Both the position numbers and the translations under genes were made by a program. Positions 2,207 to 23,355 of a DNA stretch of 27,882 nucleotides are shown here, in pieces; position 1 is the first letter of the stretch, and the number at the start of each line of letters is the position of its first letter. Under the pieces are notes generated by a model. It had not been told where the DNA came from. It ran no database searches and was given only the letters and a program-made list of their open reading frames with translations. Source of the DNA: a virus. Location: positions 1 through 27,882 of the IMG/VR virus record IMGVR_UViG_3300035670_001039, one strand, 5' to 3'.

Positions 2207-4180
2207 ATGGGCAAGAGACAAGTTCCTGTTGAGGATGTTGCGAGGTTTTGGCAGGCTCGGGCTTCGGGTCTGACGATCAAGGAGTCCTCGAAGGTTGCGG
2301 GGATCAACTACAACACGGGTCAGCGTTGGGATGCCCAGAAGAGGAAAGCTGTTGCCGAGGCGAAGATCGCCGAGTTCGATGAGGTGCAGGCGAAGGCGAA
2401 GGACTACAACCGTACTGCGTTGAAGATTGTGCAGGAGGTGGAGGATGGTCTGCCGCCTGTTATTCCGGCTTCTCGGTTGTCTGCTAGGGCAAAGAAGGGG
2501 TTGGAGGATTTCGACTATTTCCGACGGGTGTACCTCGGTCGTGTCCCCTCCCCGTGGCAGGTTGAGGCCGCATACAAGATTGTTCAGTATTTGGAGTCGC
2601 AGGAGAAGGAACATCTTGTTCTGAACTGTCCCCCTGGTGCGGGCAAGTCCACGTTGTTCCATGATGTGGCTGTGTGGGCGATTGTCCGCAACCGTGGGAT
2701 CCGTGTGCTGATCGGGTCGAACACCGAGAAGTTGGCAAAGCAGTATTCGCGCCGTATCCGTGAAACCCTTGAGCGGTCATACCCGTTGAAGCCTGACCCT
2801 GAGTTGGTGAAGAAGGGTATGGCTCTGAATGCTGAGGGGTGTTTGGCCACCGACTACGGGCGGTTCAAGCCTGCTGCTGCCGGCTCCATGTGGCGAGCCG
2901 AAGAGTTCATTGTCGAGCAGTTGGACATCGGCGGGTTGGACAACAAGGAACCGACTGTTGCCGCGTACGGTATCGATTCGGAGTTCATTGGTCATCGCGC
3001 CGATCTGTGTTTGTATGACGACGTTGCGACGACGGAGAACGCAAAGGATTCTGCGTCCCGCGACAAGCTGATTGAGCGGTGGGATTCGATGGCTGAGGCC
3101 CGCGTCGATCCAGGTGGTCTGTTGGTGGTGATCGGTCAGCGTCTTTCGAGCAATGACCTGTACGCGCATTGTTTGGCGAAGTACACCTACGACGACCTTG
3201 ACGAGGACGGGTATGACGGTTCGGACATAACAGATGTGTCATTGAAGAACCAGCGGGAGCCGACGAAGCATCAGAAGTATCACCACATCGTCTACAAAGC
3301 GTATTACGAGGAACTGGATACTGGGCCTGAGTCGCGGCGCAAGGATGCACCGGCGTGGCCCGAGGGTCCGTTGCTGGATCCGTTCCGTTTGTCGTGGAAG
3401 GATTTGTCATACATTCGGCACTCGAATCCGAACAAGTTTCGGGTGGTGTACCAGCAAGAGGACATTGACATTGAAGAAGCCCTGATCGACCGTGTCCATG
3501 CGGTGGGTGGGGTCGGCAAGGACGGTGTCGAGTACCCAGGCTGTATTGATCGTGGCCGCCGACCTGGGCATATCCCCCAGTATCTGCATCCGCCGATCAT
3601 TTCGGTGGCTTCGGTTGACCCGTCAGCGCAGAACTTCTGGGGTGTTGAGTGGTGGCTGTTCCAGCCCGAGACGAACCTGCGGTATTTGATTGACCTCGAG
3701 CGTCCGAAGATGACCGCCGAAGAGCTGTTGGGCTACGACGTGGCTTCGGGGAAATATTCGGGGATCATGGAAGAGTGGCAGAACCGGTCTGTTGACTTGG
3801 GCTACCCGATCACCCATTGGATTATCGAGATCAATGCGGCCCAGCGGTATCTCTTGGCCCACGATTTTGTGCGTCGTTGGCAGGCTTTGCATCAAGTGAA
3901 CGTGATTCCGCATACCACATCGCGGAACAAACTGGACGAGTCGCTCGGTGTCGAGGCTTTGCTGCCTCCGCTGTGGCGTTCGGGGTCGATCCGGCTGCCG
4001 ACGATGGTGGAGAACTGGAAAACGATGGCTCTTGTGGACGAGATGTGTACCTGGACCCGCGACAAGAAGCGGGGTACTGACCTTGTCATGGCGCATTGGT
4101 TTGCCGAGTTGCACCTGCCGCAGTTGCGTCCGCTGAAAGCACCGCCGCGTCAATGGCGACCGACGTGGCTGGCTGTCTAG
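2207..4180 (+). CDS. terL: terminase large subunit with N-terminal helix-turn-helix
   Basis: This is the 657-aa motor and nuclease that cuts and pumps DNA through the portal into the prohead. The start is the ATG at 2207, 9 bases after a GAAGGG ribosome-binding site. The Walker A motif PPGAGKST lies near residues 141-148 and the Walker B motif LCLYDDV near 267-273. The C-terminal RNase H-like nuclease shows its three acidic positions in SVDPSAQNF (about 468), WIIEINAAQ (about 537) and TDLVMAHWFAEL (about 624). Residues 8-45 look like a helix-turn-helix (GLTIKESSKVAGINYNTGQRW), which is normally a small-terminase trait. No separate small subunit is recognised upstream or downstream. The protein is longer than many large terminases, consistent with the added N-terminal domain. 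It is followed after 38 bases by the portal gene. Confidence 0.95.
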   Translation: MGKRQVPVEDVARFWQARASGLTIKESSKVAGINYNTGQRWDAQKRKAVAEAKIAEFDEVQAKAKDYNRTALKIVQEVEDGLPPVIPASRLSARAKKGLEDFDYFRRVYLGRVPSPWQVEAAYKIVQYLESQEKEHLVLNCPPGAGKSTLFHDVAVWAIVRNRGIRVLIGSNTEKLAKQYSRRIRETLERSYPLKPDPELVKKGMALNAEGCLATDYGRFKPAAAGSMWRAEEFIVEQLDIGGLDNKEPTVAAYGIDSEFIGHRADLCLYDDVATTENAKDSASRDKLIERWDSMAEARVDPGGLLVVIGQRLSSNDLYAHCLAKYTYDDLDEDGYDGSDITDVSLKNQREPTKHQKYHHIVYKAYYEELDTGPESRRKDAPAWPEGPLLDPFRLSWKDLSYIRHSNPNKFRVVYQQEDIDIEEALIDRVHAVGGVGKDGVEYPGCIDRGRRPGHIPQYLHPPIISVASVDPSAQNFWGVEWWLFQPETNLRYLIDLERPKMTAEELLGYDVASGKYSGIMEEWQNRSVDLGYPITHWIIEINAAQRYLLAHDFVRRWQALHQVNVIPHTTSRNKLDESLGVEALLPPLWRSGSIRLPTMVENWKTMALVDEMCTWTRDKKRGTDLVMAHWFAELHLPQLRPLKAPPRQWRPTWLAV

Positions 4181-4218: not shown

Positions 4219-5997
4219 ATGATCACAGCAGAAGAGATTGTCGCGCTGTACAGGGAGCGTCTTGAGGCCCAAGGGCCGGTGCTTCAACAGATGCGTGACG
4301 TGCGTGAGTTGGCAAACGGCGATGTTGTCATACCGTTGAACGAACTTGACCGAAACGCTAAAGCCTCCGTGGCCAACTTGCTGGTGCAGGGTCTTGACCA
4401 GCTCTCCATGCGCATTTCTTCGACCATGCCGTCGCCGTATTTCCCGCCGCTGCGCGAAGGATCCGAGCGGGCGAAAGAGATGGCTCGCACCCGCAAGAAG
4501 GCGATGCTGTCGATCTGGGATCAGAACCGCATGAAGATGAAGATGAAGCGTCGTGCGAGGCACTTGCTTGCATACTCGTCTGCTCCTGTTGTGATCAAGC
4601 CTGATTTCAAGCGGTTGGTGCCGACGTGGCACGTCCGCAACCCGCTGGATACCTTCCCCTGCCCCGACGAGGATCCAGACAACCCCGTTCCCTATGACTG
4701 CATTTTCACCTACACCAAAACAGCCAAATGGTTGTTCGACAATTACGGCGGAATCGTGGCCGGCAAACTGCGGATGGGTAAAGTCCGCCCTGACACCAAG
4801 TTTGTCCTCCTTGAGTACGTCTCCTACGACGAGATCGTTCTTTGCGTATTGGGTGAGGAAAAGAGTTTCGGAATAAACATCACGGGCGTTCTTGAAGTGA
4901 TGGAACTCGAGCGTGTGATCAACCGTACGGGTATGCCGTTGGCGGTTGTGCCGCAGCGCATCACTCTTGATCGTCCGCGCGGCCAGTTCGACGGCGTGTT
5001 GGGTATGTACTACACCCGTGCGAGGTTGCAGGCACTTACCGAAATCGCTATTGAGCGTGGCATTTTCCCCGACGAGTACCTTGTTGCGCGTCCTGCTGAG
5101 AACCCTGAGATCATTCAGGTCGCTGACGGCAAGATCGGCCAGCTCGGCATCGTCAAGGGTGGCGACATTCAACAGTTGCAGACCAACCCTGGCTACAAAA
5201 CCGACGTTGCTCTTGACCGTATCGAACGTCAGGAACGTCTCGAGGGTGCGATCCCCGCAGAGTTTGGCGGCGAATCAGGTACGAACATCCGTACCGGTCG
5301 TCGCGGCGAGTCTGTGTTGTCAGCAACGGTGGACTTCCGTGTGCAGGAAGCACAAGCGACATTCGAGTCATCGATGCTTGAAGAGGATCGCATCGCTATC
5401 GCCATCGAAAAAGCGTACTGGGGCAGTCAACCGAAGTCGTTCTTCATTGCCGGCCACAAGAACGCAGGCAAGACTGACTACACAGCGGACAAACTGTGGG
5501 AGTCCGACTTCCACTACGTCACCTACCCCGCGTCGGGAACCGATGTCAACAGTTTGGTTATCGGTCTCGGTCAGCGTTTGGGTACTGGACTCATGTCGAA
5601 AGAGTCGGCGCGTGAAGCAGATCCGTTGATCGCAGACCCCGAACTTGAGGCGGATCGCATCACGGCGGAAGGTATCGAGGCTGCGTTGCTGGCAAGCATT
5701 CAGCAGCAGGCCGCGAATCCGCAGGGTCCGTACCAGCCGGACGATCTTGCGTACCTGACGCAGTTGGTTGTCGAGCAGAACGTCAGCTTGTATGAGGCTG
5801 TGCGTAAAACGAACGAACGCGCGCAGGAACGTCAAGCGGCGCAGGCTCCGCAGGGTTCACCTGAGACGATGCCTGGTTTGGCGATGCCTGGTATGGGTGC
5901 GGAAATGCCGGTTGCGCCGCCGCCCGAAGCGGCTGCCGCACCTGCTGCACCGCAAGGAATTGAAGCATTGTTGGCTCAACTTGGGGGTGCTGCCTAA
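4219..5997 (+). CDS. portal protein
   Basis: This is a 592-aa protein directly after the terminase gene, where phages place the dodecameric portal through which DNA enters and leaves the capsid. The N-terminal half has the typical portal start (VALYRERLEAQGPVLQQMRDVRELANGD, split here only by eye into helix and loop), then a basic stretch (RTRKKAMLSIWDQNRMKMK) and a beta-rich wing. The middle has long helices (AIERGIFPDEYLVARP; VDFRVQEAQATFESSMLEED) as in portal stems and crowns. The last 60 or so residues are Pro/Ala/Met-rich (PETMPGLAMPGMGAEMP) and probably disordered, facing the capsid interior. No sharp catalytic motif exists for portals, so the call rests on position, length and general sequence character. 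The ribosome-binding site is weak. The stop TAA abuts the next ATG. Confidence 0.88.
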   Translation: MITAEEIVALYRERLEAQGPVLQQMRDVRELANGDVVIPLNELDRNAKASVANLLVQGLDQLSMRISSTMPSPYFPPLREGSERAKEMARTRKKAMLSIWDQNRMKMKMKRRARHLLAYSSAPVVIKPDFKRLVPTWHVRNPLDTFPCPDEDPDNPVPYDCIFTYTKTAKWLFDNYGGIVAGKLRMGKVRPDTKFVLLEYVSYDEIVLCVLGEEKSFGINITGVLEVMELERVINRTGMPLAVVPQRITLDRPRGQFDGVLGMYYTRARLQALTEIAIERGIFPDEYLVARPAENPEIIQVADGKIGQLGIVKGGDIQQLQTNPGYKTDVALDRIERQERLEGAIPAEFGGESGTNIRTGRRGESVLSATVDFRVQEAQATFESSMLEEDRIAIAIEKAYWGSQPKSFFIAGHKNAGKTDYTADKLWESDFHYVTYPASGTDVNSLVIGLGQRLGTGLMSKESAREADPLIADPELEADRITAEGIEAALLASIQQQAANPQGPYQPDDLAYLTQLVVEQNVSLYEAVRKTNERAQERQAAQAPQGSPETMPGLAMPGMGAEMPVAPPPEAAAAPAAPQGIEALLAQLGGAA

Positions 5998-6429
5998 ATG
6001 TCGAACGTCGAGTCGTACGCGAATCGGTCCGATCTGCGTAATCCCGCCGCAAAGATTGCCCGTCAGGCCGCCAAAGGTCAGACCTACGGTGAGGCGACAC
6101 GCCAGATGGAAGCGCAACGTGCGGTCCCGATGGGTGCATCGCCGGCTCAGGTTGAGGCTGGAGCTGTTGCTGCTCAACTGGCGGAGCGTTCCAATCGTGT
6201 TCGTGTAGCACCAGGACAACTTGGTGATCTGTACGGTCCGAGCGACATGACGCGACCGATCACAGATGGTGCCGATTTCGGCCCAGGTCGCACCGCAGCG
6301 CAAGCCGGCATTCCGAAATACATTGAGCCGGTCAACCCCGTTATGGACGAGTTGCTGGCAATTTATCGCCAATTCCCGAATGAGGATCTGGCAGATTTGA
6401 TCAGCGCGTTCCGTGACGGGGGTGTCTAA
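5998..6429 (+). CDS. 143-aa unknown protein between portal and giant virion protein
   Basis: The ATG follows the portal stop without a gap, and the stop TAA overlaps the next ATG (TAATG), so all three genes are coupled. The protein is Ala/Arg/Gln-rich and largely helical or disordered (NPAAKIARQAAKGQTYGEATRQMEAQRAVPMG), with a more hydrophobic C-terminal helix (MDELLAIYRQFPNEDLADLISAFRD, about residues 114-138). I do not recognise the family. Position beside the portal and the ejection-like proteins suggests a small head-internal or portal-associated protein. This is inference from context only. Confidence 0.8.
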   Translation: MSNVESYANRSDLRNPAAKIARQAAKGQTYGEATRQMEAQRAVPMGASPAQVEAGAVAAQLAERSNRVRVAPGQLGDLYGPSDMTRPITDGADFGPGRTAAQAGIPKYIEPVNPVMDELLAIYRQFPNEDLADLISAFRDGGV

Positions 6430-9400
6430 TGGGTTTTGAGCTTACTGTTGAAGATGAAGATGCGGTCTACGCATATGAAGAAAAGCGTAAAGAACGCGAA
6501 AAAGGTTACACGCAGAGTGCATCGACAACTCTAGCGAGTCGCGCAGCGTCGATTCACCGCACATATCCGCACCTCACGCCTGGTGTTGCGCTTGCTTTGG
6601 CGAAAGGAAATGCAAGCGAGGCGACTATTGAGCAGGCCGCGAAACGTGCTGCTGAACAGTTGGTTATCGAACAGCAACGCAAGGCCGCCGAACCGAAGGG
6701 TTTGGGGGACAAGATCTACGAAAAGTTCAAGACTGGTACGCGCTATGCAGCGGCTGCTCTGGCTTTCCCGTACGAGATCGGTGTCAATCTTGCCAGTCAA
6801 GTATTTACTGGTGGTCAGCCTGGTGGTCGTGAAGGTCTGGTCATTTCAACGTCGCTTGGTTCTCTGATTCGTAATGATGAACTTGCTGGTTCTGGTTTTT
6901 TCATGGGTGGCGAGGCTCTCCAGAAGCAGGGTGAGCGGGCGAGGCGTTATCGCGGAACGATCAATGGTCAGGCGTGGACTATTGGTCGAGGTGCTGCATC
7001 GTTGGTTTCGGAACCTGGTAGCGATGCGTACCGCTATTTGTCTGGTTTGGTAGACGCGGCAGCAATCATTGGTCTTGATCCTGTCAACTTTTTGGTTCCG
7101 GTCGGCGGAGAACTCGGCGCGGCAAAGAAGGGTGTTACCAGATTCGGTCGCACCGGACGTATTTTGCCTCTTGCAGCGGAAGATGTTGCACGGATGGCTG
7201 GTGATGTTACCCAAGTTGCAAAAACAGTAACAACCGTAACTACGGAACAAAAGATTGTTGCACGCGCGCTTGAACTCACTCGAAGTGGTGCTTCACGGGT
7301 CGATGATGTCGTTGCTGAAGAGTTTGGTCTACCCGTTGAACAAGTATTCGGGATTCTTTCACGCGAACCAGTTTTTCAAGATTTAGCACAGTTTGATGTG
7401 TGGGAACAAGGAAGGTTGCGTGGAAAGGCGGAGCAAGATTTTTTTGGTGATCTAACTGTTGAACAAAAACGTGCAGCAGTCAACCAACGGGCAGACGATT
7501 TTATCAATGATGTCGCTGGGCGTTCTCGCCAAGAGTTGCCGGCGCAGAATGTTGAGGCAGCTGGTGGTGTAAATAAAACTTCCAAACAAGTCGTTGCGGA
7601 GACTGGTAAATCGTGGCTTGATTCAGCGACTGGTCAGCGTGTTGTCGCTCAAGCCGCGACGATTGACAACATGTGGGAGATGCGCCAAGCGTTTCCGCGT
7701 GTCGGCACCCGTATGCAAGTCCAGTTGTTGGATGCCAAAACACCCGAAGAGGTGCGGGCCGTGCTGGCCCCCGCTCTCGGCCTCGAGGCTGGTGTCAGCA
7801 AGGTATCTGACTTCAAGTACCGCCACGTCTACAGCAAACTGCCCAAAGTTGAGCAGCGTTCCCGCGTCCCAGCCCTGCTCCGCAACCTTTTTGAGGGTAT
7901 GCCAAACCGGCAGATCTCGCTTCGCCCAGGCGACCGCAACATCGACGAAGCAATGTACGAGATGGATGCGTGGCTTGCGTCCAATCGCTACACACCCGAG
8001 GAACGCGCGCCGGTCCTCGAGAAGTTTGCTCGCAACCTCATCAACGAGATGGATCCAGAAGAGGCTGCGATACGCGCGCAGACGATGCGCGAAGCGGCGG
8101 AAGCGACCATCGACTTGGAACGCAGGCCGAAAGCCCAGCAGCTTCAGCAGTTGCAGGAAGAGGCAGATTCAATTTCACGTCAGGCAATCGCTGATGGTTA
8201 CGCCGAGACGTATGTCCGTAACGTCGAAAAACCATCGTTCCGTTCTGGTGCAGACCTGCGCAACTGGCTTCGTGAACCGAATCAGTTGGGTCAGTTGCGG
8301 AATGCGTTTGATACTGCGGTTGGCTGGATGGAAAGTGCCGGCATCAGCTTGGACCGTCAAACCTTGCGTCCCACATCAAGTTTGAGGGTCGGCGTTCGTA
8401 ACGCCAAAGGCAAGTTTGACCGTTTTGGTAATCGCCTTGGTGGCGAAACCGACGACCTTGTCAATGCGCTTGGCGGTCGTGTGCAGGAATACAGCCGTCG
8501 TGGCTGGGTGAAATACGGCGAGTCGGCCCGTGACAGGGGTATGGGCTTCTACCGTGGCGGCACAAAACAGTTCTTGCAGGGTGTTGACCAAGCTCTGAAC
8601 AATATGACGTTCGGTTCCGGTGCTGAAATGAGCATCGCAGAGTTTGCCGAAGAGTTTGTTCGCAATGCCGACATTATCGACACGCTTCGTCCGTTGTTCG
8701 CTAAAGGCAGTACACAAGCTAAGGGAGCAAGACTTGCCGGTCTACGGACATATGGTAACGCTGGCGATTTGCTTGACCCAACAAACTTGTTCGGGCGTGA
8801 ATATTCGGGTTTGACATACGACGACATTGTTGAGGCCACCCGCAACCGCGAAGCTCTGGCAAAAGTCAATACGACCATTACTAATAATACGATTGATGAG
8901 ATTGTTGAGAAGGCACTTGCTGGCCAGATTGATGAACTTGCTGGTTTTTCAGAACAAGAAATCTATGACATCATCGCTCGCGTTATCGCAAGAACCCCAA
9001 GTCAGGCTCTTGCTGATGCGCGTCGTTTGGAGAAAACGATTGCCGCCACCCAAAAAGAACTTGACGAAATTGATGGTCGCCTTGAACGTTTCGGTTTGGC
9101 TTCAGTCGGCAGCGGTCGAGCAGGCACCTATCAGATTGCTGAACAGTTCCGCGAACTGATGATTGAAGGATTGGTCCGTAGCGGGATTGATCGGGAGTTT
9201 GTTGAAGAACTGTTCAACGCTTACTACAAGACCCTCAAAAGCCAATCTGAATATGCCATTGACGAGATGGGCAACCCAACCGACTTCGGCCTATTGCAGG
9301 CATTGATCCCGAACGATGCTGGCGATCTTCGACCGGTTGATGCTGTTTTGGCTTCGCCAGGTCTACGCACAGAAATGCTTCAACGGACGATCTTCATGCC

Positions 9401-12400
9401 GGACCCACGACAGATTCGTCGCTTGCAGAGTCAATTAGGTTGGATCAAGACGGGCCGAATAACTGGCACGAAAACTGGCGAGATGCGGATGCCACTTTCT
9501 GCACTCGAGGGTTTCCAGCAGGATATTTGGCGACCGATGGTCTTGATGACCGGTGGCTACGTCATTCGCAACGTCGCTGAAGCACAGGCACGTCTGACAT
9601 TGATGGCCCCCACTTCATTGTTCAAGCATCCACTTCTGCACATCATGTGGGCTTCGGGATTCAAGGGTGCAGGCGATGCAATGGGCGAGGCGTTCAAGAT
9701 TTTGGCACCTTTTCAGAAATTGGTGCGTGGCCCAAGCCGCGAACAAGTCGAAATCATGGATGATGCTGTGAAGAACATCATGCGTAGTTCGCAGGAAGAA
9801 TATGTCAAGGCAATCGGTGCTTCGTACCATCGTTACGGTGGCGACCCGATTACGGCTCGACAGGTTGCAGTCCGATCTGGAATACCATCAAACGTAACGA
9901 AAACCGACCGCGCTAACTATGTTCGTGGGATTGCGGACGAGTTGCGGTTCTTGGCTTACGATCCGATTTCGATAATGGTTGCCCAAGGAAATGATGAAAC
10001 GCAGATCATTCGTTGGTTGACGCAAACAGACGAGGGTCGGCAGCGGTGGTCGGAACTGTATGCTCAATTTGAGAACGGAGTTGTCTCGATTGAAAGCGGC
10101 AAGCCAGCGATTCGTTCTTTTTCGCTTGCCGAAGTAGACAATTTGCGTACTTTCGTCCGCACCTACATTACTGGCCGCCTTGACCACAATGCTGGAGCTG
10201 TTGGTGCGTTGAAGAATGATGTGCTGCGCGACGTTGTCGCGTTCCGCGCAGTCCAAACTGGTGACGAGATTCCTGTGACCGTGGAGGAACTCAAGCAGTT
10301 CAAGCGTGTGTTCAATAGCCAGACGGAGGGGTTGAACGGCAACGTCTACCTTCTGCGTCAAGAGGTCCGCAAGGTCAAAGGCAAGAAGCAAACCGTCAAT
10401 GTTTATGGTCGATATGTTGACGACGGGACGCAACTTCAGGGTGGGCGACTGCTTGTCATGGAAGATGCGTACGACGATCTTGGCGAAGCAACTCCTGCTT
10501 TGTCGGACGCTTTGCGGCGCATCCTTGAGGATCCTGAAGCAAATACGGTTCTCCCAAATACCACAAAATATGATCCGTTGATCAGTCCAGAGCGACTGTT
10601 GAAGGGGCGTGGAACTGGAGAACTGGCAAAGACAGTCGAACGGATGAAGCGTGTCACGGACTACTTCTTCGGAAAACTGTATGGGTACACGACGGCGTAC
10701 CTTGACCGGTCACCGCTGTACCGTCAGGTGTATTACAGGCGCGTCGGTGAACTGTTTGAGTTGATGGATGACGCATCGGTCGTGACATTCCGAGACAATA
10801 TTCTCAAGGGTGCCGCCGATCTGAAACTTGATCCCGATGATTATGTCGGTTCGACCAAGTTGTGGAAGCGCATCGAGGAAAGGGCAACCAAACCGACTGG
10901 TGGTGGCCGCATCAACCTGACCCAAATGGATGCCTACGCCAAGGGTTTCGCTCTGGACGAATTGAACATCACGCTTTATTCGGCTGTGTCGCGCAACAAC
11001 TTCACGGACATCGCCCGTATCATCGCCCCGTTCGGTCAAGCGTGGGGCGAGGTTCTCAACACCTGGGTGCGTTTGATTGCGACGGATCCGAAGGTGCTGC
11101 GCCGCGCAAGCCTGATCGTTGAAACCGGCAAGGAAGCCGATCCCGACGGCGATGGTCGAGGTTTCTTCTACAAGGATCCTGTCACCGGCGAATATGTGTT
11201 TGACTATCCGCTGTCCAACAAGGGCATCGGCTTGTTGACTGGCCCGATTGCCAAGGCATTGGACAAGGTGCCGATCTTGAACAGGTTCGGCTCGGACGCT
11301 GGGCCAGTCAATGCTTCGTTGACTGCACCAATCAAGTCGCTCAACATGGCGTTGACTTTGACTCCTGGTATCGGACCGATGCTTCAGGTTCCAGCAGCGA
11401 TCATTCTGCGCAACGTCCCAGGCATGGATCAGGTCAAGGAAGTGCTGATGCCGTACGGCGATCCCAGCCTGCGTGGCACGACGTTCATTCCTGCGTGGTT
11501 GCAGAAGTTTGCATCGGGTGTGTGGGACGGTCCAGACACCAGCCGACTCATGGGCCAAACCTACGCCGAGGTCGTCCAAAGCCTCCACGCCTCGGGCAAC
11601 TACAACACGTCCGATCAGAATGACCGTGAGCGGATGTTTGAGGATGCCATCGGTATTTCTCGCCAGCTGACCGTTCTTCGGTCTTTCGGCCAGTTCATTG
11701 GACCAACCCGACCAGTTGTCGAGTTTTCCGACGGCGACATTATGACCGCGTTCTACGCCCAGATTCTGGAGCAGTTCCGTCTTGAGGATTACGACACCGC
11801 CACCTCTCGGTTTATGGAACTTTTCCCCAATGCCATTTCCTATCTTGGCGCAAAGACCAAAGCCCAGTACGGCGGTCTTGATGCTGGCAATGTCTACGGC
11901 AAATGGGAAGAAGAGAACGGTGCCGTAATCAAGCGTTACCGCGATGTCGGAGGCTACTTCGGCCCAACCGGTGGCGACTTTGACATCGTCACCTACAGCC
12001 GCCAGTTGTCGCAAGGCAAGCGCAGCCGCATGACCGCCCGCCAGATCATTGAGCAGGCCGAGTTCCAGGCTGGTAACGCCATGTACAAGGAAGTTGCCAA
12101 GCAATTCCAAGGCCCGCGCAGCGACGAGGTACGCGAACAGTTGCGTCAGTATCGAGAATTGCTGGGGCAGAAGTACCCAGGATTTGCCACCCTCCAGTCG
12201 TTCGACACCCAGAGGTTTGACCGTGAAGTCGCGCAGTTACGTCGTGCAACAACCGATAACGAACTAGAGGGTAACCCTGTCCGCGATGCTGTTGAGATTT
12301 ACCTGACGGCGCGTGATGAGGCTCTTGGCGTGGCGCAATCCCGTGGCCGTTCAAGCCTTGGTGGCCGCGACGACGACGACCTTCGCCAGTTGCTCCGCCA

Positions 12401-12500
12401 GCTTGGCGAGACACTTGGTGAGAGATACCCAGATTTTGTCAGGTTGTATGATCGGGTGTTGTCCCGAGAAGTAGAGAGCGACACGGACCCCAATGGCTGA
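6429..12500 (+). CDS. giant virion protein (2023 aa), probable internal/ejection protein
   Basis: This single 6-kb frame takes up over a fifth of the window. The N-terminal 100 residues are charged and helical. Residues about 105-235 contain several long apolar stretches (YAAAALAFPYEIGVNLASQVF; AAAIIGLDPVNFLVPVGG). Residues about 1035-1085 include GGYVIRNVAEAQARL and a hydrophobic stretch (HPLLHIMWASGFKGAGDAM). Near 1533 comes IIAPFGQAWGEVLNTWVRL, and near 1567-1595 DPDGDGRGFFYKDP then GEYVFDYP, a combination I associate with very large uncharacterised virion proteins of actinobacterial phages. The C-terminus is coiled-coil-like and rich in Asp/Arg. Great length, amphipathic and apolar segments and position beside the portal fit an internal core protein ejected with the DNA, as for podovirus internal proteins. 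No lysozyme, protease or polymerase motif was recognised. Base composition varies along the gene. It overlaps the next gene by 8 bases. Confidence 0.82.
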   Translation: MGFELTVEDEDAVYAYEEKRKEREKGYTQSASTTLASRAASIHRTYPHLTPGVALALAKGNASEATIEQAAKRAAEQLVIEQQRKAAEPKGLGDKIYEKFKTGTRYAAAALAFPYEIGVNLASQVFTGGQPGGREGLVISTSLGSLIRNDELAGSGFFMGGEALQKQGERARRYRGTINGQAWTIGRGAASLVSEPGSDAYRYLSGLVDAAAIIGLDPVNFLVPVGGELGAAKKGVTRFGRTGRILPLAAEDVARMAGDVTQVAKTVTTVTTEQKIVARALELTRSGASRVDDVVAEEFGLPVEQVFGILSREPVFQDLAQFDVWEQGRLRGKAEQDFFGDLTVEQKRAAVNQRADDFINDVAGRSRQELPAQNVEAAGGVNKTSKQVVAETGKSWLDSATGQRVVAQAATIDNMWEMRQAFPRVGTRMQVQLLDAKTPEEVRAVLAPALGLEAGVSKVSDFKYRHVYSKLPKVEQRSRVPALLRNLFEGMPNRQISLRPGDRNIDEAMYEMDAWLASNRYTPEERAPVLEKFARNLINEMDPEEAAIRAQTMREAAEATIDLERRPKAQQLQQLQEEADSISRQAIADGYAETYVRNVEKPSFRSGADLRNWLREPNQLGQLRNAFDTAVGWMESAGISLDRQTLRPTSSLRVGVRNAKGKFDRFGNRLGGETDDLVNALGGRVQEYSRRGWVKYGESARDRGMGFYRGGTKQFLQGVDQALNNMTFGSGAEMSIAEFAEEFVRNADIIDTLRPLFAKGSTQAKGARLAGLRTYGNAGDLLDPTNLFGREYSGLTYDDIVEATRNREALAKVNTTITNNTIDEIVEKALAGQIDELAGFSEQEIYDIIARVIARTPSQALADARRLEKTIAATQKELDEIDGRLERFGLASVGSGRAGTYQIAEQFRELMIEGLVRSGIDREFVEELFNAYYKTLKSQSEYAIDEMGNPTDFGLLQALIPNDAGDLRPVDAVLASPGLRTEMLQRTIFMPDPRQIRRLQSQLGWIKTGRITGTKTGEMRMPLSALEGFQQDIWRPMVLMTGGYVIRNVAEAQARLTLMAPTSLFKHPLLHIMWASGFKGAGDAMGEAFKILAPFQKLVRGPSREQVEIMDDAVKNIMRSSQEEYVKAIGASYHRYGGDPITARQVAVRSGIPSNVTKTDRANYVRGIADELRFLAYDPISIMVAQGNDETQIIRWLTQTDEGRQRWSELYAQFENGVVSIESGKPAIRSFSLAEVDNLRTFVRTYITGRLDHNAGAVGALKNDVLRDVVAFRAVQTGDEIPVTVEELKQFKRVFNSQTEGLNGNVYLLRQEVRKVKGKKQTVNVYGRYVDDGTQLQGGRLLVMEDAYDDLGEATPALSDALRRILEDPEANTVLPNTTKYDPLISPERLLKGRGTGELAKTVERMKRVTDYFFGKLYGYTTAYLDRSPLYRQVYYRRVGELFELMDDASVVTFRDNILKGAADLKLDPDDYVGSTKLWKRIEERATKPTGGGRINLTQMDAYAKGFALDELNITLYSAVSRNNFTDIARIIAPFGQAWGEVLNTWVRLIATDPKVLRRASLIVETGKEADPDGDGRGFFYKDPVTGEYVFDYPLSNKGIGLLTGPIAKALDKVPILNRFGSDAGPVNASLTAPIKSLNMALTLTPGIGPMLQVPAAIILRNVPGMDQVKEVLMPYGDPSLRGTTFIPAWLQKFASGVWDGPDTSRLMGQTYAEVVQSLHASGNYNTSDQNDRERMFEDAIGISRQLTVLRSFGQFIGPTRPVVEFSDGDIMTAFYAQILEQFRLEDYDTATSRFMELFPNAISYLGAKTKAQYGGLDAGNVYGKWEEENGAVIKRYRDVGGYFGPTGGDFDIVTYSRQLSQGKRSRMTARQIIEQAEFQAGNAMYKEVAKQFQGPRSDEVREQLRQYRELLGQKYPGFATLQSFDTQRFDREVAQLRRATTDNELEGNPVRDAVEIYLTARDEALGVAQSRGRSSLGGRDDDDLRQLLRQLGETLGERYPDFVRLYDRVLSREVESDTDPNG

Positions 12501-13260
12501 AACAACGACACCGCCGCCGACAACGGCGACGATTGACCAGAAACTGGCCGATCTTCAGGCCGGCTTCAAGCAGCTTGCTGCTCAGGGTGGCGGGGAGTCT
12601 CGCCTCGGTTACACAACGCCTCGTTACGGTGTGCCGGCTGGCTATACCCGTGCGGGCCGTGAGCCTGGTATCTACAACATCGTCACGGGACAGAGAGAAC
12701 AAGACGGTTACTATGATCTGGAAAGTATGCCGTTCACGATTTTGTACGGCATTTCTGATGATGTCAAACGTGAAGAACTCCGCAAGACGCTGTTCGCCAA
12801 GGGGTATTACCGCACAAGCAAAATCCCGACTGGCGCAGTTGATCGTGAAGATGAGTATGCGATGGCCGAATTGTTGCGTGAGGCAAACATCAACCAGACT
12901 CGATGGGATCAGTACGTTGACGCTGTCAAGGCTCGCCCAGACAAGGTGACGGGTGGGGCGGCACGTCCCCGTCTGACGGTTACTTCGGCTGATGACATTG
13001 TCGTCATTGCCAACCGTTTGGCTATCGAAACATTGGGTCGCAGGCTGAAAGACAATGAGGCGCAAACAATCGCTCGACTGTACCAAGCGCAAGAACAACA
13101 GGCTGGTATGCAGGCTGCCGTGTCGCGTACATCTGTTGCGGCACCCGATGTGACAACGACTGTGATGAATACCCTTGAGACAAAGTATGGCGGCGAACAG
13201 GAAGCGTATGGCTATTTGCAGGCCGCTAATCGTTTGGCGCGTTTGGTGGGGGCTGTCTGA
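12493..13260 (+). CDS. 255-aa unknown virion-associated protein
   Basis: The ATG at 12493 lies inside the end of the giant gene (8-base overlap); the stop TGA overlaps the next ATG (TGATG). The first 25 residues are Thr/Pro-rich (TTTPPPTTATID), then comes a helix (QKLADLQAGFKQLAAQ). A middle domain (YYDLESMPFTILYGISDDVKRE then LRKTLFAKGYYRTSKIP) precedes two helical segments. The second of these (VIANRLAIETLGRRLKDNEA then QTIARLYQAQEQQ) has the regular helix pattern seen in phage internal or scaffold-like proteins. No enzymatic motif is seen. Tight coupling to flanking large proteins suggests it is made and assembled with them, probably inside the head. Function is unknown. Confidence 0.8.
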   Translation: MAETTTPPPTTATIDQKLADLQAGFKQLAAQGGGESRLGYTTPRYGVPAGYTRAGREPGIYNIVTGQREQDGYYDLESMPFTILYGISDDVKREELRKTLFAKGYYRTSKIPTGAVDREDEYAMAELLREANINQTRWDQYVDAVKARPDKVTGGAARPRLTVTSADDIVVIANRLAIETLGRRLKDNEAQTIARLYQAQEQQAGMQAAVSRTSVAAPDVTTTVMNTLETKYGGEQEAYGYLQAANRLARLVGAV

Positions 13261-14954
13261 TGGCTGGAGCAAATCAAAAAGAAATCGAAAAACTCGTCAA
13301 GGAAATAAATGCACAACTTGACGCAATCAGGGAAGCAAAGTTTTCGGTTGCCTCTGCGGAGGGGTTGGTTGATTACACCGATCCTCTCACTAATCAAACA
13401 TCCCCCATTTCCTTGGATGACCTTGACGTTTTGGAACGGGGTCTAAAAGACAATAAGAAAGTTCTTGAAAAAACCCTAAAACCGTTGAAGGACGCTGAAA
13501 AGACCTCGGCCCAAGCCGATGAGGATTATCAACGCGCTATCAGAATCGCTCAAAGTAAGTCTGCTCAATCTGGTCTTGGTATCAATCAGCGTATTGCCAA
13601 TGAACGACTCAATGCGGCAAAGAAAGCAGTTGACCTCTCAAAAACCAAATTGACCGAGGCAACCAACAAGCTGGAAAGCCCCGAAACAAACATTCAGGCA
13701 ATTTTGACTGGGACATCAAAAGATACTGTTGGTCCCCGTACCGCCCCACCTCGAATGAGGATGCCCGAAGAGGCCGCCGACCGAGGTGTTGTTACTGGAA
13801 AGCCACCGACCCCGCGTGATTTGGCTGGCGGCGGTGGTGGTGGCGGTGGAGCGACCCCGCCGCCCAAACCTGGTAAGCCTGGTGAAGCGTCCCCAGGTTT
13901 GCAGCAAGAGTTTTTGACTGTTGTCAATCAGCAATTCGGAACATCGTTCAAGACGGTCAATGAATATTTGTCGGCCAAGGGTGTCAAGGGGATGGCACCT
14001 CGAGCGAAGCGTGTTGAGCGATACAACAAGTTCATTGCCGGCAAGGAAGAAACCACGCCAGAGGGCGGTCTGACGGAACGTGGCAAGCAGATTCTTCAGC
14101 AGGAATACGGTTGGGTTTCGGCATACATCGGTATCGATCCTGACGTGGATGCGGCGATGGGTCAGTTGGCGCGAAAGGAAATATCCGAGGACGCATTCGA
14201 TGCCAAGATCCGCTCGAGCAAGTGGTGGCAGGAACGCAACGATTTTACGCGGGCGTGGGATGTCAAGGAACGCACACCTGGTTCTACTGCCCAGAAGGAA
14301 ATTGACGACCGAGTCCAGTCAATGAAGGATTATGCCTTGTCCAAGTTTGGTGTTGTGCTGTCACCGGAGCAGCTGCGTCCGTGGGCGAGGCAGACCCTCC
14401 GAGAGGGTGCGTCTGCTCCGACCCAAGAGAACGGTGTTGCCGCCATCATTGTCAAAGGTGGCAGCCAAGGTGCGATTGACCAGTTGCGTCAGGGTGGCGT
14501 GGCACAAAGAGTCAATGACGTGAATGCCCGTTACGGCTACAACCCTGGATCGGATTTTGTCAACCAGTCCATCTCGAACATTGCGTTGGGGACAATGACC
14601 GAAGATATGTATGAGTCAAAAGTCAAGAGTTTCGTCAAGACTATGTACGGTGCAGACGTTGGCGATTTGTTGGACCGAGGCTATTCGGTTGCAGATATTG
14701 CAGAGCCGTACGTCCAGACCGCCGCACGGATGCTTGAGACAAATCCGAACATGATTGACATGAAGGACACGAAGTTCCAAAAGGCTTTGGGCATGGTGGA
14801 TGCTGACGGCAAGAAGCGTCAGATGACTTTGGGCGAGTGGGAGAAAACGCTGCGTACGGACCCGATTTACGGGTGGGATAAAACGAACCAAGCAGCAGGT
14901 TTGGCTGTTCAGGTTGGCGAGCAGATTTTGCGCCAGTTCGGAAAGGTGCAGTAA
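13260..14954 (+). CDS. 564-aa probable internal virion protein with polyglycine linker
   Basis: Residues about 5-150 form a charged helical, probably coiled-coil region (EIEKLVKEINAQLDAIREAK; LNAAKKAVDLSKTKLTEATNKL). A disordered Pro/Gly linker follows, including eight consecutive glycines at residues 190-197 and PPPKPGKPGEASPG. The C-terminal 350 residues look globular and helical, ending with a conserved-looking stretch (YSVADIAEPYVQTAARMLE; KRQMTLGEWEKTLRTDPIYG). The N-terminal 170 codons are visibly more A/T-rich than the rest, so the coiled coil may have a separate origin. No enzyme motif is recognised. The two-part layout with a flexible hinge and its place among large proteins suggest a structural or ejected head-internal protein. 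The TAA stop abuts the next ATG. Confidence 0.8.
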   Translation: MAGANQKEIEKLVKEINAQLDAIREAKFSVASAEGLVDYTDPLTNQTSPISLDDLDVLERGLKDNKKVLEKTLKPLKDAEKTSAQADEDYQRAIRIAQSKSAQSGLGINQRIANERLNAAKKAVDLSKTKLTEATNKLESPETNIQAILTGTSKDTVGPRTAPPRMRMPEEAADRGVVTGKPPTPRDLAGGGGGGGGATPPPKPGKPGEASPGLQQEFLTVVNQQFGTSFKTVNEYLSAKGVKGMAPRAKRVERYNKFIAGKEETTPEGGLTERGKQILQQEYGWVSAYIGIDPDVDAAMGQLARKEISEDAFDAKIRSSKWWQERNDFTRAWDVKERTPGSTAQKEIDDRVQSMKDYALSKFGVVLSPEQLRPWARQTLREGASAPTQENGVAAIIVKGGSQGAIDQLRQGGVAQRVNDVNARYGYNPGSDFVNQSISNIALGTMTEDMYESKVKSFVKTMYGADVGDLLDRGYSVADIAEPYVQTAARMLETNPNMIDMKDTKFQKALGMVDADGKKRQMTLGEWEKTLRTDPIYGWDKTNQAAGLAVQVGEQILRQFGKVQ

Positions 14955-16208
14955 ATGTCCAATATTGACAGGACTGATTACACGTTCAGCAACATTGACT
15001 GGGCCGCGCTGAACCTTGACGGTGTTGGTGGATTTTTGGGGACAGTTGGAGGCACTTCGGCACCAGCACCTACGACCACTTCGGTAATGACCGCAGCCGA
15101 GGCCGAGGCGGCAGCAGCTTTGGCGAGTGGTGGCATTCCGCTGAACCGTCCTTTTGTTGCAGAGACACCGCCAGTTGAACAACCTACGGGCGGCGGCACT
15201 CAAACCGTGGAGGAAGAAGAACCTCAGTTTGTCAGACTGCCGCGAACGATTGCTCCGATTGTTCAGCCACCGGCAAGTCAAACTCCGATTGAGCCACCTG
15301 CCCCGCCTGCGCCAGACCCAGAGGCAGCGAAAAGGGCGGCGCGAGCGTCTGCGCGACCGATGGCCGAGATTTTGACGGACTATCTCAAGCCGTATTTTTC
15401 GCAAGAAGATCTTGATGTTTTGTTGGGTGTGGCCATCGACAAGATCGTGGAGTTCGGGCAGGATCTTGCGCCGGCAATGGTTCCGATTGAACTAAAGAAA
15501 ACGACCCAGTACAAGACTCGTTTCGCCGCCAATGCCAAGCGAATCGAAAAAGGCTTGCCGGAACTGTCGCCGGCTGAGTATGTCAGTTTGGAGCAGACCT
15601 ACCGCGATTTGTTCAAGGCTTATGGAATGCCCGACTGGTCGTATGACGAAACAACCGACTTTGAGAAGATTCTTGAAAACAACATTCAGCCTGCTGAAAT
15701 GAACCGTCGCATCGTCCAAGGTTTCAACGCTGTCAAAACTGCACCGCCAGAAGTGATCAAGCAGTTCAAGGATCTCTACGACATTGATGAATCCAACCTT
15801 GCTGCGTATTTTCTTGACCCAACCCGAGGTGCAGAAAAGTTGGTACGTCAGGCCGAGGCCGCCCAGGTTGCTGGAATTGCCAAGCAGGCTGGCGGTATTA
15901 CGCTTGGTGCTACGGCTGCCGAGGCTGCGTCGTTTGCGGAACGCATCGCTGCCGAGGGTATTGCCCCGTCGGATCTCCAGGCCGGTTTCGCCCGCATTGC
16001 CGAACAGCAAGGTTTGTTCAGGCCGCTTATGCGTGGCGAAGAACAGATCTCCCAGCAGGAACAGGTTGAAGGGACTCTCGGCATCAATGCCGCTGCCCGT
16101 CAACGTATCGAGGCGCGTCGTCGTCGCCGGCAGGCAGAGTTTCAAGAGGGCGGTGGCTTTGCTGAGACTGCTCAGGGTGTCGTCGGTCTGCGGACGGTTG
16201 GCGAATGA
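14955..16208 (+). CDS. 417-aa probable internal virion protein
   Basis: The first 135 residues are low-complexity: Ala/Thr/Pro-rich with acidic EEEE and a PPAPPAPDPEAAKRAARASA stretch. From about residue 136 a helical domain begins (MAEILTDYLKPYFSQEDLDVLLGV, recognisable as a regular amphipathic helix pair) and runs on through several alpha-helical segments. The C-terminus is very basic (RQRIEARRRRRQAEF, about 376-390) followed by a Gly-rich tail GVVGLRTVGE. I recall similar basic tail sequences in actinophage virion proteins of unknown role. An Arg-rich end fits contact with packaged DNA. It is the last of four consecutive large proteins before the scaffold, and it overlaps the following 42-aa gene by ATGA. 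Confidence 0.78.
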   Translation: MSNIDRTDYTFSNIDWAALNLDGVGGFLGTVGGTSAPAPTTTSVMTAAEAEAAAALASGGIPLNRPFVAETPPVEQPTGGGTQTVEEEEPQFVRLPRTIAPIVQPPASQTPIEPPAPPAPDPEAAKRAARASARPMAEILTDYLKPYFSQEDLDVLLGVAIDKIVEFGQDLAPAMVPIELKKTTQYKTRFAANAKRIEKGLPELSPAEYVSLEQTYRDLFKAYGMPDWSYDETTDFEKILENNIQPAEMNRRIVQGFNAVKTAPPEVIKQFKDLYDIDESNLAAYFLDPTRGAEKLVRQAEAAQVAGIAKQAGGITLGATAAEAASFAERIAAEGIAPSDLQAGFARIAEQQGLFRPLMRGEEQISQQEQVEGTLGINAAARQRIEARRRRRQAEFQEGGGFAETAQGVVGLRTVGE

Positions 16209-16333
16209 TCGAATGCGACGGCTGCGGAGTCGAGTACGACCCCGTCGGTTGTCGTTGGCGTTGCCCCAAGTGCGGACTCAAGTCGTCGTGCTGCGAGGGT
16301 GAAGCGCAAGATAGTTGCACACACAACGATTGA
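16205..16333 (+). CDS. 42-aa zinc-ribbon protein
   Basis: This short frame starts with an ATGA overlap on the upstream stop and ends at TGA 16331-16333. It encodes 42 residues with eight cysteines: Cys4-x2-Cys7, Cys16, Cys20-x2-Cys23 (CPKCGLKSS), Cys29-Cys30 and Cys37. Two CxxC knuckles 12 residues apart are a clear zinc-ribbon layout, which makes chance coding unlikely in spite of the size. Its place, between internal proteins and the scaffold, is odd for a metal-binding micro-protein. The layout echoes the zinc-ribbon genes at 387-1117. Function unknown; candidates are a small regulator or an assembly factor. Confidence 0.68.
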   Translation: MIECDGCGVEYDPVGCRWRCPKCGLKSSCCEGEAQDSCTHND

Positions 16334-16469
16334 TGTGTAAAGTTCTCCACGATCCCGAGTGGAGGAACCGACCAGTAATCCCCCTAGCTGGTTGTGTATA
16401 AGGGGCGACCAACAACTATGCAGCCATCACGGTCCTCCGCCGTGGTGAGGGCAAAAAGGAGAGTGCCAT
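16334..16469 (+). promoter_or_regulatory. leader before scaffold/capsid genes
   Basis: This is a 136-base gap in an otherwise packed gene string. It holds hairpins CTCCAC/GTGGAG (about 16344-16363), ACCAG/CTGGT (about 16371-16392) and CACGG/CCGTG (16428-16432 with 16440-16444). TATAAG at 16397-16402 could be a -10, but no -35 is seen. A strong AAGGAGAG ribosome-binding site sits at 16456-16463, 6 bases before the scaffold ATG. An own promoter or processing site for scaffold and capsid would raise their expression above the upstream genes; this is inferred. Confidence 0.4.
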
Positions 16470-16916
16470 ATGTCCCAGATCGAAGATTTCGACTACGAGG
16501 ATGACGACTTTACAGACCGCAACCCTTTGCGGAATGTGAACAAGAAACTGGAGAAGGAACTTGCTGCTCTGAGAAAAGAGCGTGAGGAACTGCTCGCAGC
16601 CAAACGAGAGAACGCTTTCATCAAGGCGGGCATCGACCCGAATGATGCGAAGTTCAAGTATTTCGTCAAGGGCTACGACGGTGAACTGACTCCAGATGCC
16701 ATCCGAGAAGCAGGGATTGAGGCGCAGTTGATCGCCCCACCGTCGCCGGTGTCCGCAAGTGCGGACGAGCAGGCTGCGTGGAACCGCACCGCCAAGGTGG
16801 CTGCGGGAGCCAACGCAGCACAAGCACCAGTCGATTGGGCAGCGCGAATCAACGCCGCCGAATCCCCCGCAGAGGTCGAAGCGATCATGGCAGAGGCGCG
16901 AGCTGCCCTCGGGTAG
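16470..16916 (+). CDS. capsid scaffolding protein
   Basis: A 148-aa protein immediately before the capsid gene. The N-terminus is acidic (IEDFDYEDDDF), followed by a coiled coil at about residues 22-48 (NKKLEKELAALRKEREELLA). The AFIKAGIDPNDAKFKYFVKG and YDGELTPDAIREAGIEAQL segments are characteristic of scaffold proteins paired with such capsid proteins in actinobacterial phages. The C-terminal 60 residues are Ala-rich and helical (SPAEVEAIMAEARAAL). Scaffolds of this kind direct prohead assembly inside the shell and leave before or during packaging. It has the strong ribosome-binding site described for the leader, fitting the high amounts needed. I see no protease domain. Confidence 0.87.
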   Translation: MSQIEDFDYEDDDFTDRNPLRNVNKKLEKELAALRKEREELLAAKRENAFIKAGIDPNDAKFKYFVKGYDGELTPDAIREAGIEAQLIAPPSPVSASADEQAAWNRTAKVAAGANAAQAPVDWAARINAAESPAEVEAIMAEARAALG

Positions 16917-16957
16917 CGAATACCCCCAAATCACTTCAACCCTGAAAGGAAACCCAA

Positions 16958-17935
16958 GTGGCCGGAGAAACAACCACCTCCTCACTTTCGGTTGACCAGA
17001 CAGCATTTGATCGCCTTGCGTACTTCGCTCTGCGTTCGGAACTTCTGTTCGACCAGGCTGCCGATGTGCAGCCGACCCAGCAGTCCATGCCTGGTTCTGC
17101 CGTCACGTTCACGATCTTCGCGGACATTGCGGCTGCCACCAGCACCCTCAACGAGGTCACCGACGTTACCCCGACCGCCCTGAGCGACTCGCAGGTCACC
17201 GTCACCCTCGCTGAATATGGCAACGCTGTCGTCACCACGGCCAAGCTCCGTGGCACGTCGTTCCTCGACGTTGACGCTGCTGCTGCGAACATCATCGGCT
17301 ACAACGCTGGCGACTCAATCGACCAGGTTGTCCGTGACGTTCTCGCCGGCGGTCAGAACGTCGTGTACGCAACGGGTGGCGCAAGCGACCCGACGAGCCG
17401 TGCAACGGTCGGCAGCGATGACACGATCACCGCGAACGACGTTCGCAAGGTCGTGGCCCAGCTCCGTGCAGCCAACGTCGCAACCTTCAACGGTGCGTAC
17501 ATCGGCTACATCCACCCTGACGTGTCGTACGACTTCCGTTCGGCAACCGATGCGGCTGGCTTCCGTAGCTCGGTCCAGTACACCAACGCGATGCCCTTCT
17601 ACCAGGGCGAGATCGGCACGTTCGAGTCGGTCCGCTTCATCGAAACCCCCCGCGCCAAGGTGTTCACGAACGCCTCGGACGGCTCGGGTTCTTCGACCGG
17701 TTCCAGCGCGACGGTGGACGTGTACTGCACCCACATCATGGGCCGTCAGGCTCTCGCCAAGGCACACAGCATCACCGATGGCAACGGCTCCATGCCGAAG
17801 ATCGTTCGCGGCAACGTGACCGACCTTCTCATGCGCCTCCAGCCGATTGGCTGGTACTGGCTCGGCGGCTACGGACGCTTCCGTGAGGCAAGCCTCCGCC
17901 GCATCGAGTCGGCCTCAAGCATCGGCTCCAACTAA
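16958..17935 (+). CDS. major capsid protein, N4-gp56 family
   Basis: A 325-aa protein that builds the capsid shell. The start is a GTG at 16958, 7 bases after GAAAGGA. The stretch VTFTIFADIAAATSTLNEV, then DVTPTALSDSQVTVTLAEYG, then NAVVTTAKLRGTSFLDVD is typical of N4-gp56-type HK97-fold capsid proteins. The central IGYIHPDVSYDFRS and C-terminal GWYWLGGYGRFREASLRRIE also fit. An insertion-like Ser/Gly/Thr loop (DGSGSSTGSSATVD, about 242-255) may be surface exposed. Codon third positions are strongly C-biased compared with neighbouring genes, fitting very high expression. It follows the scaffold directly and precedes a double-hairpin terminator. The family call is from sequence pattern. Confidence 0.92.
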   Translation: MAGETTTSSLSVDQTAFDRLAYFALRSELLFDQAADVQPTQQSMPGSAVTFTIFADIAAATSTLNEVTDVTPTALSDSQVTVTLAEYGNAVVTTAKLRGTSFLDVDAAAANIIGYNAGDSIDQVVRDVLAGGQNVVYATGGASDPTSRATVGSDDTITANDVRKVVAQLRAANVATFNGAYIGYIHPDVSYDFRSATDAAGFRSSVQYTNAMPFYQGEIGTFESVRFIETPRAKVFTNASDGSGSSTGSSATVDVYCTHIMGRQALAKAHSITDGNGSMPKIVRGNVTDLLMRLQPIGWYWLGGYGRFREASLRRIESASSIGSN

Positions 17936-17949
17936 CACGGCTCAACTCA

Positions 17950-18011
17950 CCTGACGGTTTCGACTGTCAGGCCCGTGTAGCATCGGCCCCCTGCGCGAGC
18001 GGGGGGCTTTT
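17950..18011 (+). terminator. double-hairpin terminator after capsid gene
   Basis: The first hairpin pairs CCTGAC (17950-17955) with GTCAGG (17966-17971). The second pairs GCCCCC (17986-17991) with GGGGGC (18002-18007) and is followed by TTTT at 18008-18011, a normal intrinsic terminator. Placement after the capsid gene would end the high-level scaffold/capsid transcript, with some read-through to the downstream genes. Confidence 0.75.
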
Positions 18012-18036
18012 GCTATTATCACGAACGAGGTAACCC

Positions 18037-18399: not shown

Positions 18400-18410
18400 C
18401 GGGGTAGGCG

Positions 18411-23197: not shown

Positions 23198-23355
23198 TGG
23201 CTAAGTCGATGCGTGGCAAGAAAGCCAAGATCCAGAAGGTCATGGGCGAGTACAAGCGTGGCACCCTGCATTCGGGCAAGGGTGGACCTGTTGTCACGTC
23301 CAAGAAGCAGGCTGTTGCCATTGCCTTGACGCAGGCTCGCAAGAAGAAGAAGTGA
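23197..23355 (+). CDS. DUF6496-like 52-aa basic protein
   Basis: The ATG at 23197 overlaps the previous TAA (TAATG) and the stop at 23353-23355 forms GTGA with the next gene. The sequence KVMGEYKRGTLHSGKGGPVV and TSKKQAVAIALTQARKKKK matches closely the DUF6496 pattern (KVM.EFK.G.L.SG..G..V.SRKQAIAIALSEA), which is common in bacteria and phages. Function of the family is unknown. The Lys-rich ends and AIAL helix again suggest contact with nucleic acid. Last of the four-gene basic cluster. Confidence 0.82.
   Translation: MAKSMRGKKAKIQKVMGEYKRGTLHSGKGGPVVTSKKQAVAIALTQARKKKK

Follow-up and report, generated by a model that had tools for sequence, protein, structure and literature searches.

A five-gene block between portal and scaffold

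The window analyzed here is a linear IMG/VR virus fragment (record IMGVR_UViG_3300035670_001039) of 27,882 bases, and our subject is the block of five genes, A to E, that lies between its portal gene and its probable scaffold gene (Table 1). We call these genes coupled because, in the list of open reading frames (ORFs), neighboring frames abut or overlap by 1-8 nt; together they encode 3,402 amino acids (aa) across 10,211 bp. The original prediction, which described more than 10 kb and about 3400 residues in five coupled genes between portal and scaffold, was right in its coordinates. That the ORFs are real genes is shown by PHROG matches of A, D and E and by a gene order kept in relatives. 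The name "scaffold" is an assignment from position and from phrog_7813, a family without assigned function.

Table 1. Genes of the window named in this analysis, with the basis of each name.
Feature	Length (aa)	Positions	Strand	Basis and remarks
Terminase large subunit		2207-4180	+	ORF list and family searches
Portal protein	592	4219-5997	+	phrog_104, E 2.7e-21; conserved left flank of cassette
Gene A	143	5998-6429	+	phrog_8200, E 9.4e-17; first cassette gene; no cysteine
Gene B	2,023	6429-12500	+	Largest; probably ejection-type; no cysteine
Gene C	255	12493-13260	+	Position; most variable cassette protein
Gene D	564	13260-14954	+	phrog_6654, E 2.8e-38
Gene E	417	14955-16208	+	phrog_8424, E 4.8e-61; last cassette gene
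Probable scaffold	148	16470-16916	+	phrog_7813, E 5.6e-29; right flank of cassette; function suggested by position
Major capsid protein, N4-gp56 type		16958-17935	+	PF13252, E 2.2e-66
Probable head-tail adaptor	295	23352-24239	+	phrog_7578, E 6.5e-101
Probable tail (nozzle-like) protein	625	24241-26118	+	phrog_11667, E 2.8e-54; role suggested by position between adaptor and fiber
Tail fiber protein		26129-27760	+	phrog_4492 tail fiber, E 1.3e-55

A scan of IMG/VR with the capsid protein of the window gave 572 confirmed relatives, from which we retained the best 80, and scans with two other members of the lineage gave at least 598 relatives each. There were 148 loci with a capsid gene, of which 122 were unique around it; many of the loci are short and hold few genes. 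The order portal-A-B-C-D-E-scaffold-capsid was violated in none of the 122. It is identical in cultured Planktophila phages (OX376640) and in the Streptomyces podoviruses of cluster BF (Beephvirinae: Stella, Manuel and FlowerPower). Where at least 9.3 kb lay upstream of the capsid gene (40 genomes, the window included), the order held in all 40, and profile searches recovered all eight genes in 31; the remaining nine lacked one to three genes by this measure, some starting inside the block and others being profile misses, as for the portal annotated in Manuel and Stella's phrog_7813 scaffold. WhiB marks actinobacterial phages according to PMC10202952, and 17 of the 18 records tested have the gene, the exception being the window fragment itself; a 37-kb contig (G001) whose capsid protein is 99% identical to that of the window has one. 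The order is therefore a stable trait of a lineage of actinobacterial podoviruses. The original prediction had taken it to point to an uncommon head architecture, and had proposed a comparison of gene orders. That comparison finds the order common to the lineage; operon position alone shows nothing about head architecture.

The same prediction held that typical podoviruses place their ejection genes after the capsid gene, and this is so in each of the seven model phage records that we inspected (T7, N4, P22, SP6, epsilon15, P-SSP7 and phiKMV). In a recent analysis, ejectosomal podoviruses are recognized by a tubeB gene with ejectosome genes behind it (PMC10386132), and the window departs from the rule given there that ejection genes follow the tail tube gene. 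Bacillus phage Pascal has the capsid type of the window, but in its genome a single small gene separates portal from capsid, and the largest protein is encoded far downstream.

The Beephvirinae resemble the window in the order of all eight genes and in having homologous A, B, D, E, scaffold and capsid proteins. Their genomes, of about 45 kb, differ in an endolysin gene between terminase and portal, where the window has a gap of 38 nt and no such gene, and in small extra genes before A and B. In addition, D is duplicated and fused to NlpC/P60 and SLT domains, unlike in the window, and the right edge of the cassette, between E and scaffold, carries 19-21 tRNA genes (L002 15976-17749, L003 16464-18329, L005 15986-18057). 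A tRNA gene search of the whole window found none, and an Rfam search of the window found nothing. By the tRNA array and the endolysin gene, then, the window belongs to a lineage that is related to the Beephvirinae and is not a member of them. The E-scaffold junction of the window measures only 261 bases, without a tRNA, and no promoter-like site was found around it on the + strand (15900-18500).

Exchange of A-E as a cassette

A-E are swapped as one cassette between phages with near-identical portal, scaffold and capsid: where portal and capsid are still 94-99% identical, A-E have dropped to 17-81%. Between the window and contig L011, DNA identity is 95-97% in portal, about 30-70% in A-E and 97-100% in scaffold and capsid; the corresponding protein identities are 99% for portal, 76, 54, 46, 44 and 56% for A, B, C, D and E, and 99% for scaffold and capsid. 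Synonymous divergence (dS) is 0.17 in portal, 0.87-2.7 in A-E, 0.06 in scaffold and 0.04 in capsid, and because it jumps in A-E the ancestry of the block differs from that of its flanks; the block has not merely changed faster. The contrast is sharper still between the proteins of L118 and L080, at 94% identity for portal, 58, 17, 19, 21 and 38% for A, B, C, D and E, 99% for scaffold and 96% for capsid.

Among the 435 pairs that can be formed from 30 contigs, 24 had a DNA identity of at least 85% in both portal and capsid, and in 11 of these B was at most 64% identical. By our reading of the pairs, the 11 reflect about four exchange events: the window and L020 against L011, L013 and L014; L118 against L080; L093 against L079; and L059 against L046, L058 and L063. 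In the last it is mainly B and C that differ, so smaller exchanges occur too. A Mantel test of 29 contigs gave a rho of 0.55-0.77 for the block genes among themselves (five gene pairs tested), 0.67 for portal with scaffold and 0.73 for scaffold with capsid; rho with B was 0.21 for portal and 0.16 for capsid.

The breakpoints recur at similar places. On the left, four of five pairs lose identity inside A, at about 150-210 bases past the portal stop (L093/L079 are irregular there). On the right, four of five pairs regain it within a stretch that runs from about 80 bases short of the end of E to 100 bases beyond it (L059/L058 have no right-hand drop). For the window and L011, the drop lies about 150 nt past the portal stop and the recovery about 20-80 nt before the E stop. 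The first 40-50 codons of A, approximately, belong to the conserved flank, and residues 31-45 of A are 61% identical even between distant phages; judged from the sequence, this conserved start is a candidate docking site. Exchangeability as a unit also suggests that the contact surface between A-E and the rest of the virion is small.

A comparison of the window with L014 gave 96% identity for the adaptor, the 625-residue tail protein and F353. Among the genes compared outside A-E, only a glycosyltransferase gene (21528-22622; 60%) and the tail fiber (62%) differed as much as the block. Most neighbors of this glycosyltransferase gene are 95-98% identical to L014.

Cultured isolates have the same pattern. 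Kavagutti and co-workers used a single "Ca. Planktophila" strain to isolate phages E7 and F5 and found them to be 96.8% identical in nucleotide sequence, with an "8 kbp genomic island" encoding three and four hypothetical proteins, to which the authors gave no function and for which they found no homologue in the respective other phage of the pair; their recruitment plots revealed two hypervariable islands, the 8-kb one and the tail-fiber region, and host recognition was proposed for the latter only (PMC10202952). In our alignment of E7 and F5 (OX376640, OX376641) the only gap of about 8 kb is E7 8372-16922, with its left edge 88 bases inside A and its right edge 9 bases short of the end of E. 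We equate the published island with it because it is the sole gap of that size; the published text, as we read it, carries no island coordinates. Protein identity between E7 and F5 is 96% for portal, 47, 24, 23 and 26% for A, B, D and E, and 99% for both scaffold and capsid. With F5 left out of the profiles, its A (5e-8), D (3e-17) and E (7e-13) are recovered from 426 ORFs. The B of F5 gave an E-value of 0.0077 with the first profile and was missed by a broader one, and is matched to B of E7 by position, size and absence of cysteine only; none of A, B, D and E of F5 contains cysteine. Since homologues of A, D and E are present in both islands, the islands are alternative forms of one cassette. 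These Planktophila phages, LanE43AprE7 and F5, are like the window in gene order and in cassette exchange with similar breakpoints, and they carry the WhiB gene that the window fragment lacks and G001 has. They differ in a capsid protein only about 47% identical to that of the window and in having no separate C gene that we could recognize.

Could the low identity of A-E instead reflect fast evolution in place, or chimeric contigs? All block genes evolve fast between distant phages as well, which would be expected in the former case. However, dS jumps along with protein divergence (0.04-0.17 in the flanks against 0.87-2.7 in the block), the breakpoints recur, and the pattern in E7 and F5, as cultured isolates, speaks against assembly chimeras. 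We therefore regard an explanation without exchange as extremely unlikely.

Protein families and cysteine content

Protein B of the window has no PHROG or Pfam match. Of 25 B alleles, 11 match phrog_10618, a family without assigned function to which the Streptomyces gp10-type protein belongs, and in none of the 25 was an enzyme family detected, RNA polymerase families included. The C-terminal part, of about 1,120 residues, keeps its length among these alleles, while the N-terminal part varies from 439 to 899 residues; in the window this length-variable part is encoded by 6429-9125. The C-terminal 1,124 residues were modelled poorly, at a predicted local distance difference test (pLDDT) score of 57, with scattered structural matches (Z at most 6.8) that cover small parts. 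Profile searches of the PDB with B, D and E gave chance-level matches only.

Protein D consists of a variable N-terminal part and a conserved, all-helical C-terminal domain (residues 266-564), for which AlphaFold gives a confident helical model (pLDDT 87.9). In BFVD this domain has nine matches at E of 0.001 or less, all viral, of which the sole phage-named one is the "minor tail protein" of FlowerPower, D's own homologue; no solved structure matched it at that threshold, the best Z being 3.9. The family phrog_6654 is common to D and to two adjacent Streptomyces phage proteins, the gp12-type and gp13-type pair of Stella. All three Beephvirinae gp12-type homologues of D (3/3) carry an N-terminal NlpC/P60 domain (PF00877, 9.5e-30), and the gp13-type protein of FlowerPower, unlike those of Stella and Manuel (1/3), carries an SLT transglycosylase domain (PF01464, 3.6e-5; 23.8 bits, cut-off 21.3). 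Protein E has a conserved, Arg-rich C-terminus in an alignment of 49 relatives. We considered D and E as possible paralogues and rejected this (profile comparison probability 6%).

The five proteins form a cluster within the structural block, with several large members, and they diverge far faster than portal, which are traits of ejection proteins. Over the 435 pairs, median amino acid identity is 75% for portal and 86% for capsid, and 27% for B, 38% for E and 22% for C; in T7-type phages, portal identity is 69% as against 34% for gp15-like proteins (review, PMC8954989).

In the window, A-E contain no cysteine in 3,402 residues, against 33 in 4,340 residues of the 12 other proteins counted (Fisher 6e-9). 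Over 36 contigs, which include near-duplicates, so that the alleles are related and not independent (the median identity of B alleles is nonetheless just 27%), cysteines number 0 in 63,321 residues of B, 0 in 4,226 of A, 0 in 16,207 of D, 2 in 12,360 of E and 12 in 9,761 of C, and the whole block is free of cysteine in 30 of the 36; capsid and portal have 2.5 and 1.3 cysteines per thousand residues. As controls we used T7, N4 and P22, fetched first for gene order, and added SP6, epsilon15, P-SSP7 and phiKMV from a review's list of fourteen. With the ejected class assigned from annotation and general background, and terminase and protease omitted from the remaining virion proteins, these seven podoviruses have 9 cysteines in 17,777 residues of the ejection type, against 116 in 19,686 residues of the remainder (Fisher 9e-23); T7 gp13 (3 cysteines) was part of a first count and is in neither class here. 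N4 gp50 (3,500 residues), T7 gp16 (1,318) and phiKMV gp37 (1,337) have no cysteine, and the tubeB tail proteins have 4-9 each in five control phages.

A plausible reason is that ejected proteins have to pass a narrow channel unfolded and then fold again away from the cytoplasm, which is reducing; N4 gp50 has been proposed to unfold upon ejection (PMC12633501). Our literature search, for which most subscription journals were outside reach, found no published low-cysteine rule for ejected proteins, and "cystein" is absent from the main text of the ejection-protein review and of the N4 virion RNA polymerase paper. Near absence of cysteine as a trait of ejection proteins is thus an observation made here, not a published definition. 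The NlpC/P60 proteins of Stella, Manuel and FlowerPower each have exactly one cysteine, at residue 33 in VDCSG, which contains the DCSG motif (3/3). We take this lone cysteine to be the catalytic residue of that family.

Pascal's largest protein (L150 18364-23382; 1,672 residues, LPD38), annotated as hypothetical, is likewise large and cysteine-free in a phage with the capsid type of the window, and it may be the ejected protein of that phage. It differs in lying at the far end of the structural genes, and we rejected B as an LPD38 protein: PF18857 was found in 0 of 19 lineage records, as against 1 of 1 for Pascal, and profile comparisons were negative. An extra scan for LPD38 relatives returned only close kin of Pascal.

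Probable function and neighboring genes

We believe that A-E of this short-tailed actinobacterial phage are probably its internal, ejected ("pilot") proteins, which get the DNA through the cell wall, because they lack cysteine and diverge fast, because their relatives carry wall hydrolases, and because the tail genes are elsewhere. The adaptor and fiber genes lie after the capsid gene, and Stella's member of the adaptor family phrog_7578 matches PF24175 (SU10_adaptor) above the cut-off (2e-7); the tail is accounted for outside A-E. Of the original prediction of internal-type proteins, the internal placement thus survives as likelier than tail parts; the uncommon head architecture is not supported by the gene order as such, and the large internal core built on the portal is conjectural. 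T7 gp14/gp15/gp16, P22 gp7/gp20/gp16 and N4 gp50/gp51/gp52 are similarly multi-gene sets of large, fast-evolving, nearly cysteine-free proteins, some with wall hydrolase domains; they differ in lying after the capsid gene. Ejection proteins are a known functional class, and what is new here is their arrangement and mode of inheritance.

On this model, A-E would be made from the coupled genes directly behind the portal gene and packed inside the head near the portal. On adsorption they would leave ahead of the DNA via portal, adaptor and tail, largely unfolded, and would then reassemble as a conduit that crosses the wall and the membrane, a D-type carrier bringing a wall hydrolase where the host wall demands one (NlpC/P60 and lytic transglycosylase in the Streptomyces phages). 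Having few points of contact with the remaining virion, the set would be replaceable as one unit.

Several points weigh against this assignment. No hydrolase was detected in D of the window or in the 34 other aquatic D members scanned, and no similarity to the ejection proteins of T7, N4 and P22 was found at the level of sequence, which leaves room for a distant similarity of fold (we compared a profile with T7 gp16, and profiles with the ORFs of T7, N4, P22, SP6, epsilon15, P-SSP7, phiKMV and Pascal). Absence of cysteine is neither universal nor exclusive, as C shows with its 12 cysteines and as scaffold or capsid proteins that can be cysteine-free show from the other side; the ejection-type proteins of epsilon15, with 7 cysteines in 2,728 residues, are an exception. 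We found no virion proteomics or structure in the literature for any member of the lineage. Finally, GenBank annotators name the Streptomyces homologues of D "minor tail protein", and the PHROGs nearest to the NlpC domain are tail proteins (329, 400, 1015).

These last two points favor an alternative in which A-E are external tail or tail-tip proteins and the D homologues tail lysins of the "minor tail protein" kind. Against it stand the adaptor and fiber genes found after the capsid gene, a cysteine content unlike that of the tubeB controls, and the lack of any tail family match for B, C or E. Moreover Abafar, a Beephvirinae (BF) phage, is a podovirus with a 60 nm head and a 16 nm tail by electron microscopy (PMC11536984), and such a tail leaves little room for about 3,400 extra residues; we judge this alternative unlikely. 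A lasting structure inside the head, a body or core that is not ejected, would suit genes that adjoin those for portal and scaffold, and large proteins that are predicted to be largely helical, yet a retained core offers no obvious reason for the cysteine absence that fits ejected proteins, and a wall hydrolase such as those on the D homologues is able to work only once it is out of the head, which makes a retained core very unlikely. It is also conceivable that B is an injected enzyme acting in the host, like the N4 virion RNA polymerase, and that the set contributes to takeover of the host more than to passage of DNA: N4 and this phage have a common capsid type, N4 gp50 is likewise huge and cysteine-free, and B belongs to no known enzyme or structural family. 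We consider this highly improbable, as no enzyme family was detected in the 25 B alleles and phages of the lineage carry sigma-like factors (PMC10202952).

The assignment of A-E as ejection proteins would give a likely function to a large orphan block in a lineage that numbers several hundred environmental contigs or more (a single scan gave 572 with this capsid). The same function would apply to the 8-kb hypervariable island of the Planktophila phages, the first to be brought into culture for an order that ranks among the most abundant bacteria of fresh water. The assignment points to actinobacterial hosts being served by an ejection module organized and inherited unlike those of T7, P22 and N4, and suggests absence of cysteine as a homology-free mark of ejected proteins. 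Natural pairs of isolates that differ in the cassette, and hardly in portal, scaffold or capsid, constitute a ready-made experiment on ejection proteins and host choice. As for the adaptive role of the exchange, host range is something we only infer, because the two unlike cassettes of E7 and F5 work on one strain, which speaks against a simple role of that kind. More tentatively, and with somewhat less than even confidence, we picture the head as a chassis with a socket for ejection cassettes, formed by the portal with the first 45 or so residues of A and by the E end. Exchange of cassette and tail fiber might then be the main way of tracking actinobacterial envelopes and explain the Planktophila island, with low cysteine as a general homology-free mark of ejected proteins.

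Downstream of the capsid gene follow a phrog_240 "head protein", a duplicated family, glycosyltransferase-like genes, phrog_7578, phrog_11667 and the tail fiber. Just 3' of the capsid gene, at 17985-18008, is a strong terminator-like hairpin of 10 pairs. The adjacent genes 18411-19472 and 19472-19768 share the end of phrog_23524, the first encoding a 353-residue protein and the second a 98-residue partial duplicate. The glycosyltransferase-like genes, at 20004-20687 and 21528-22622 (phrog_29879 and phrog_2170), lie between the capsid and tail genes.

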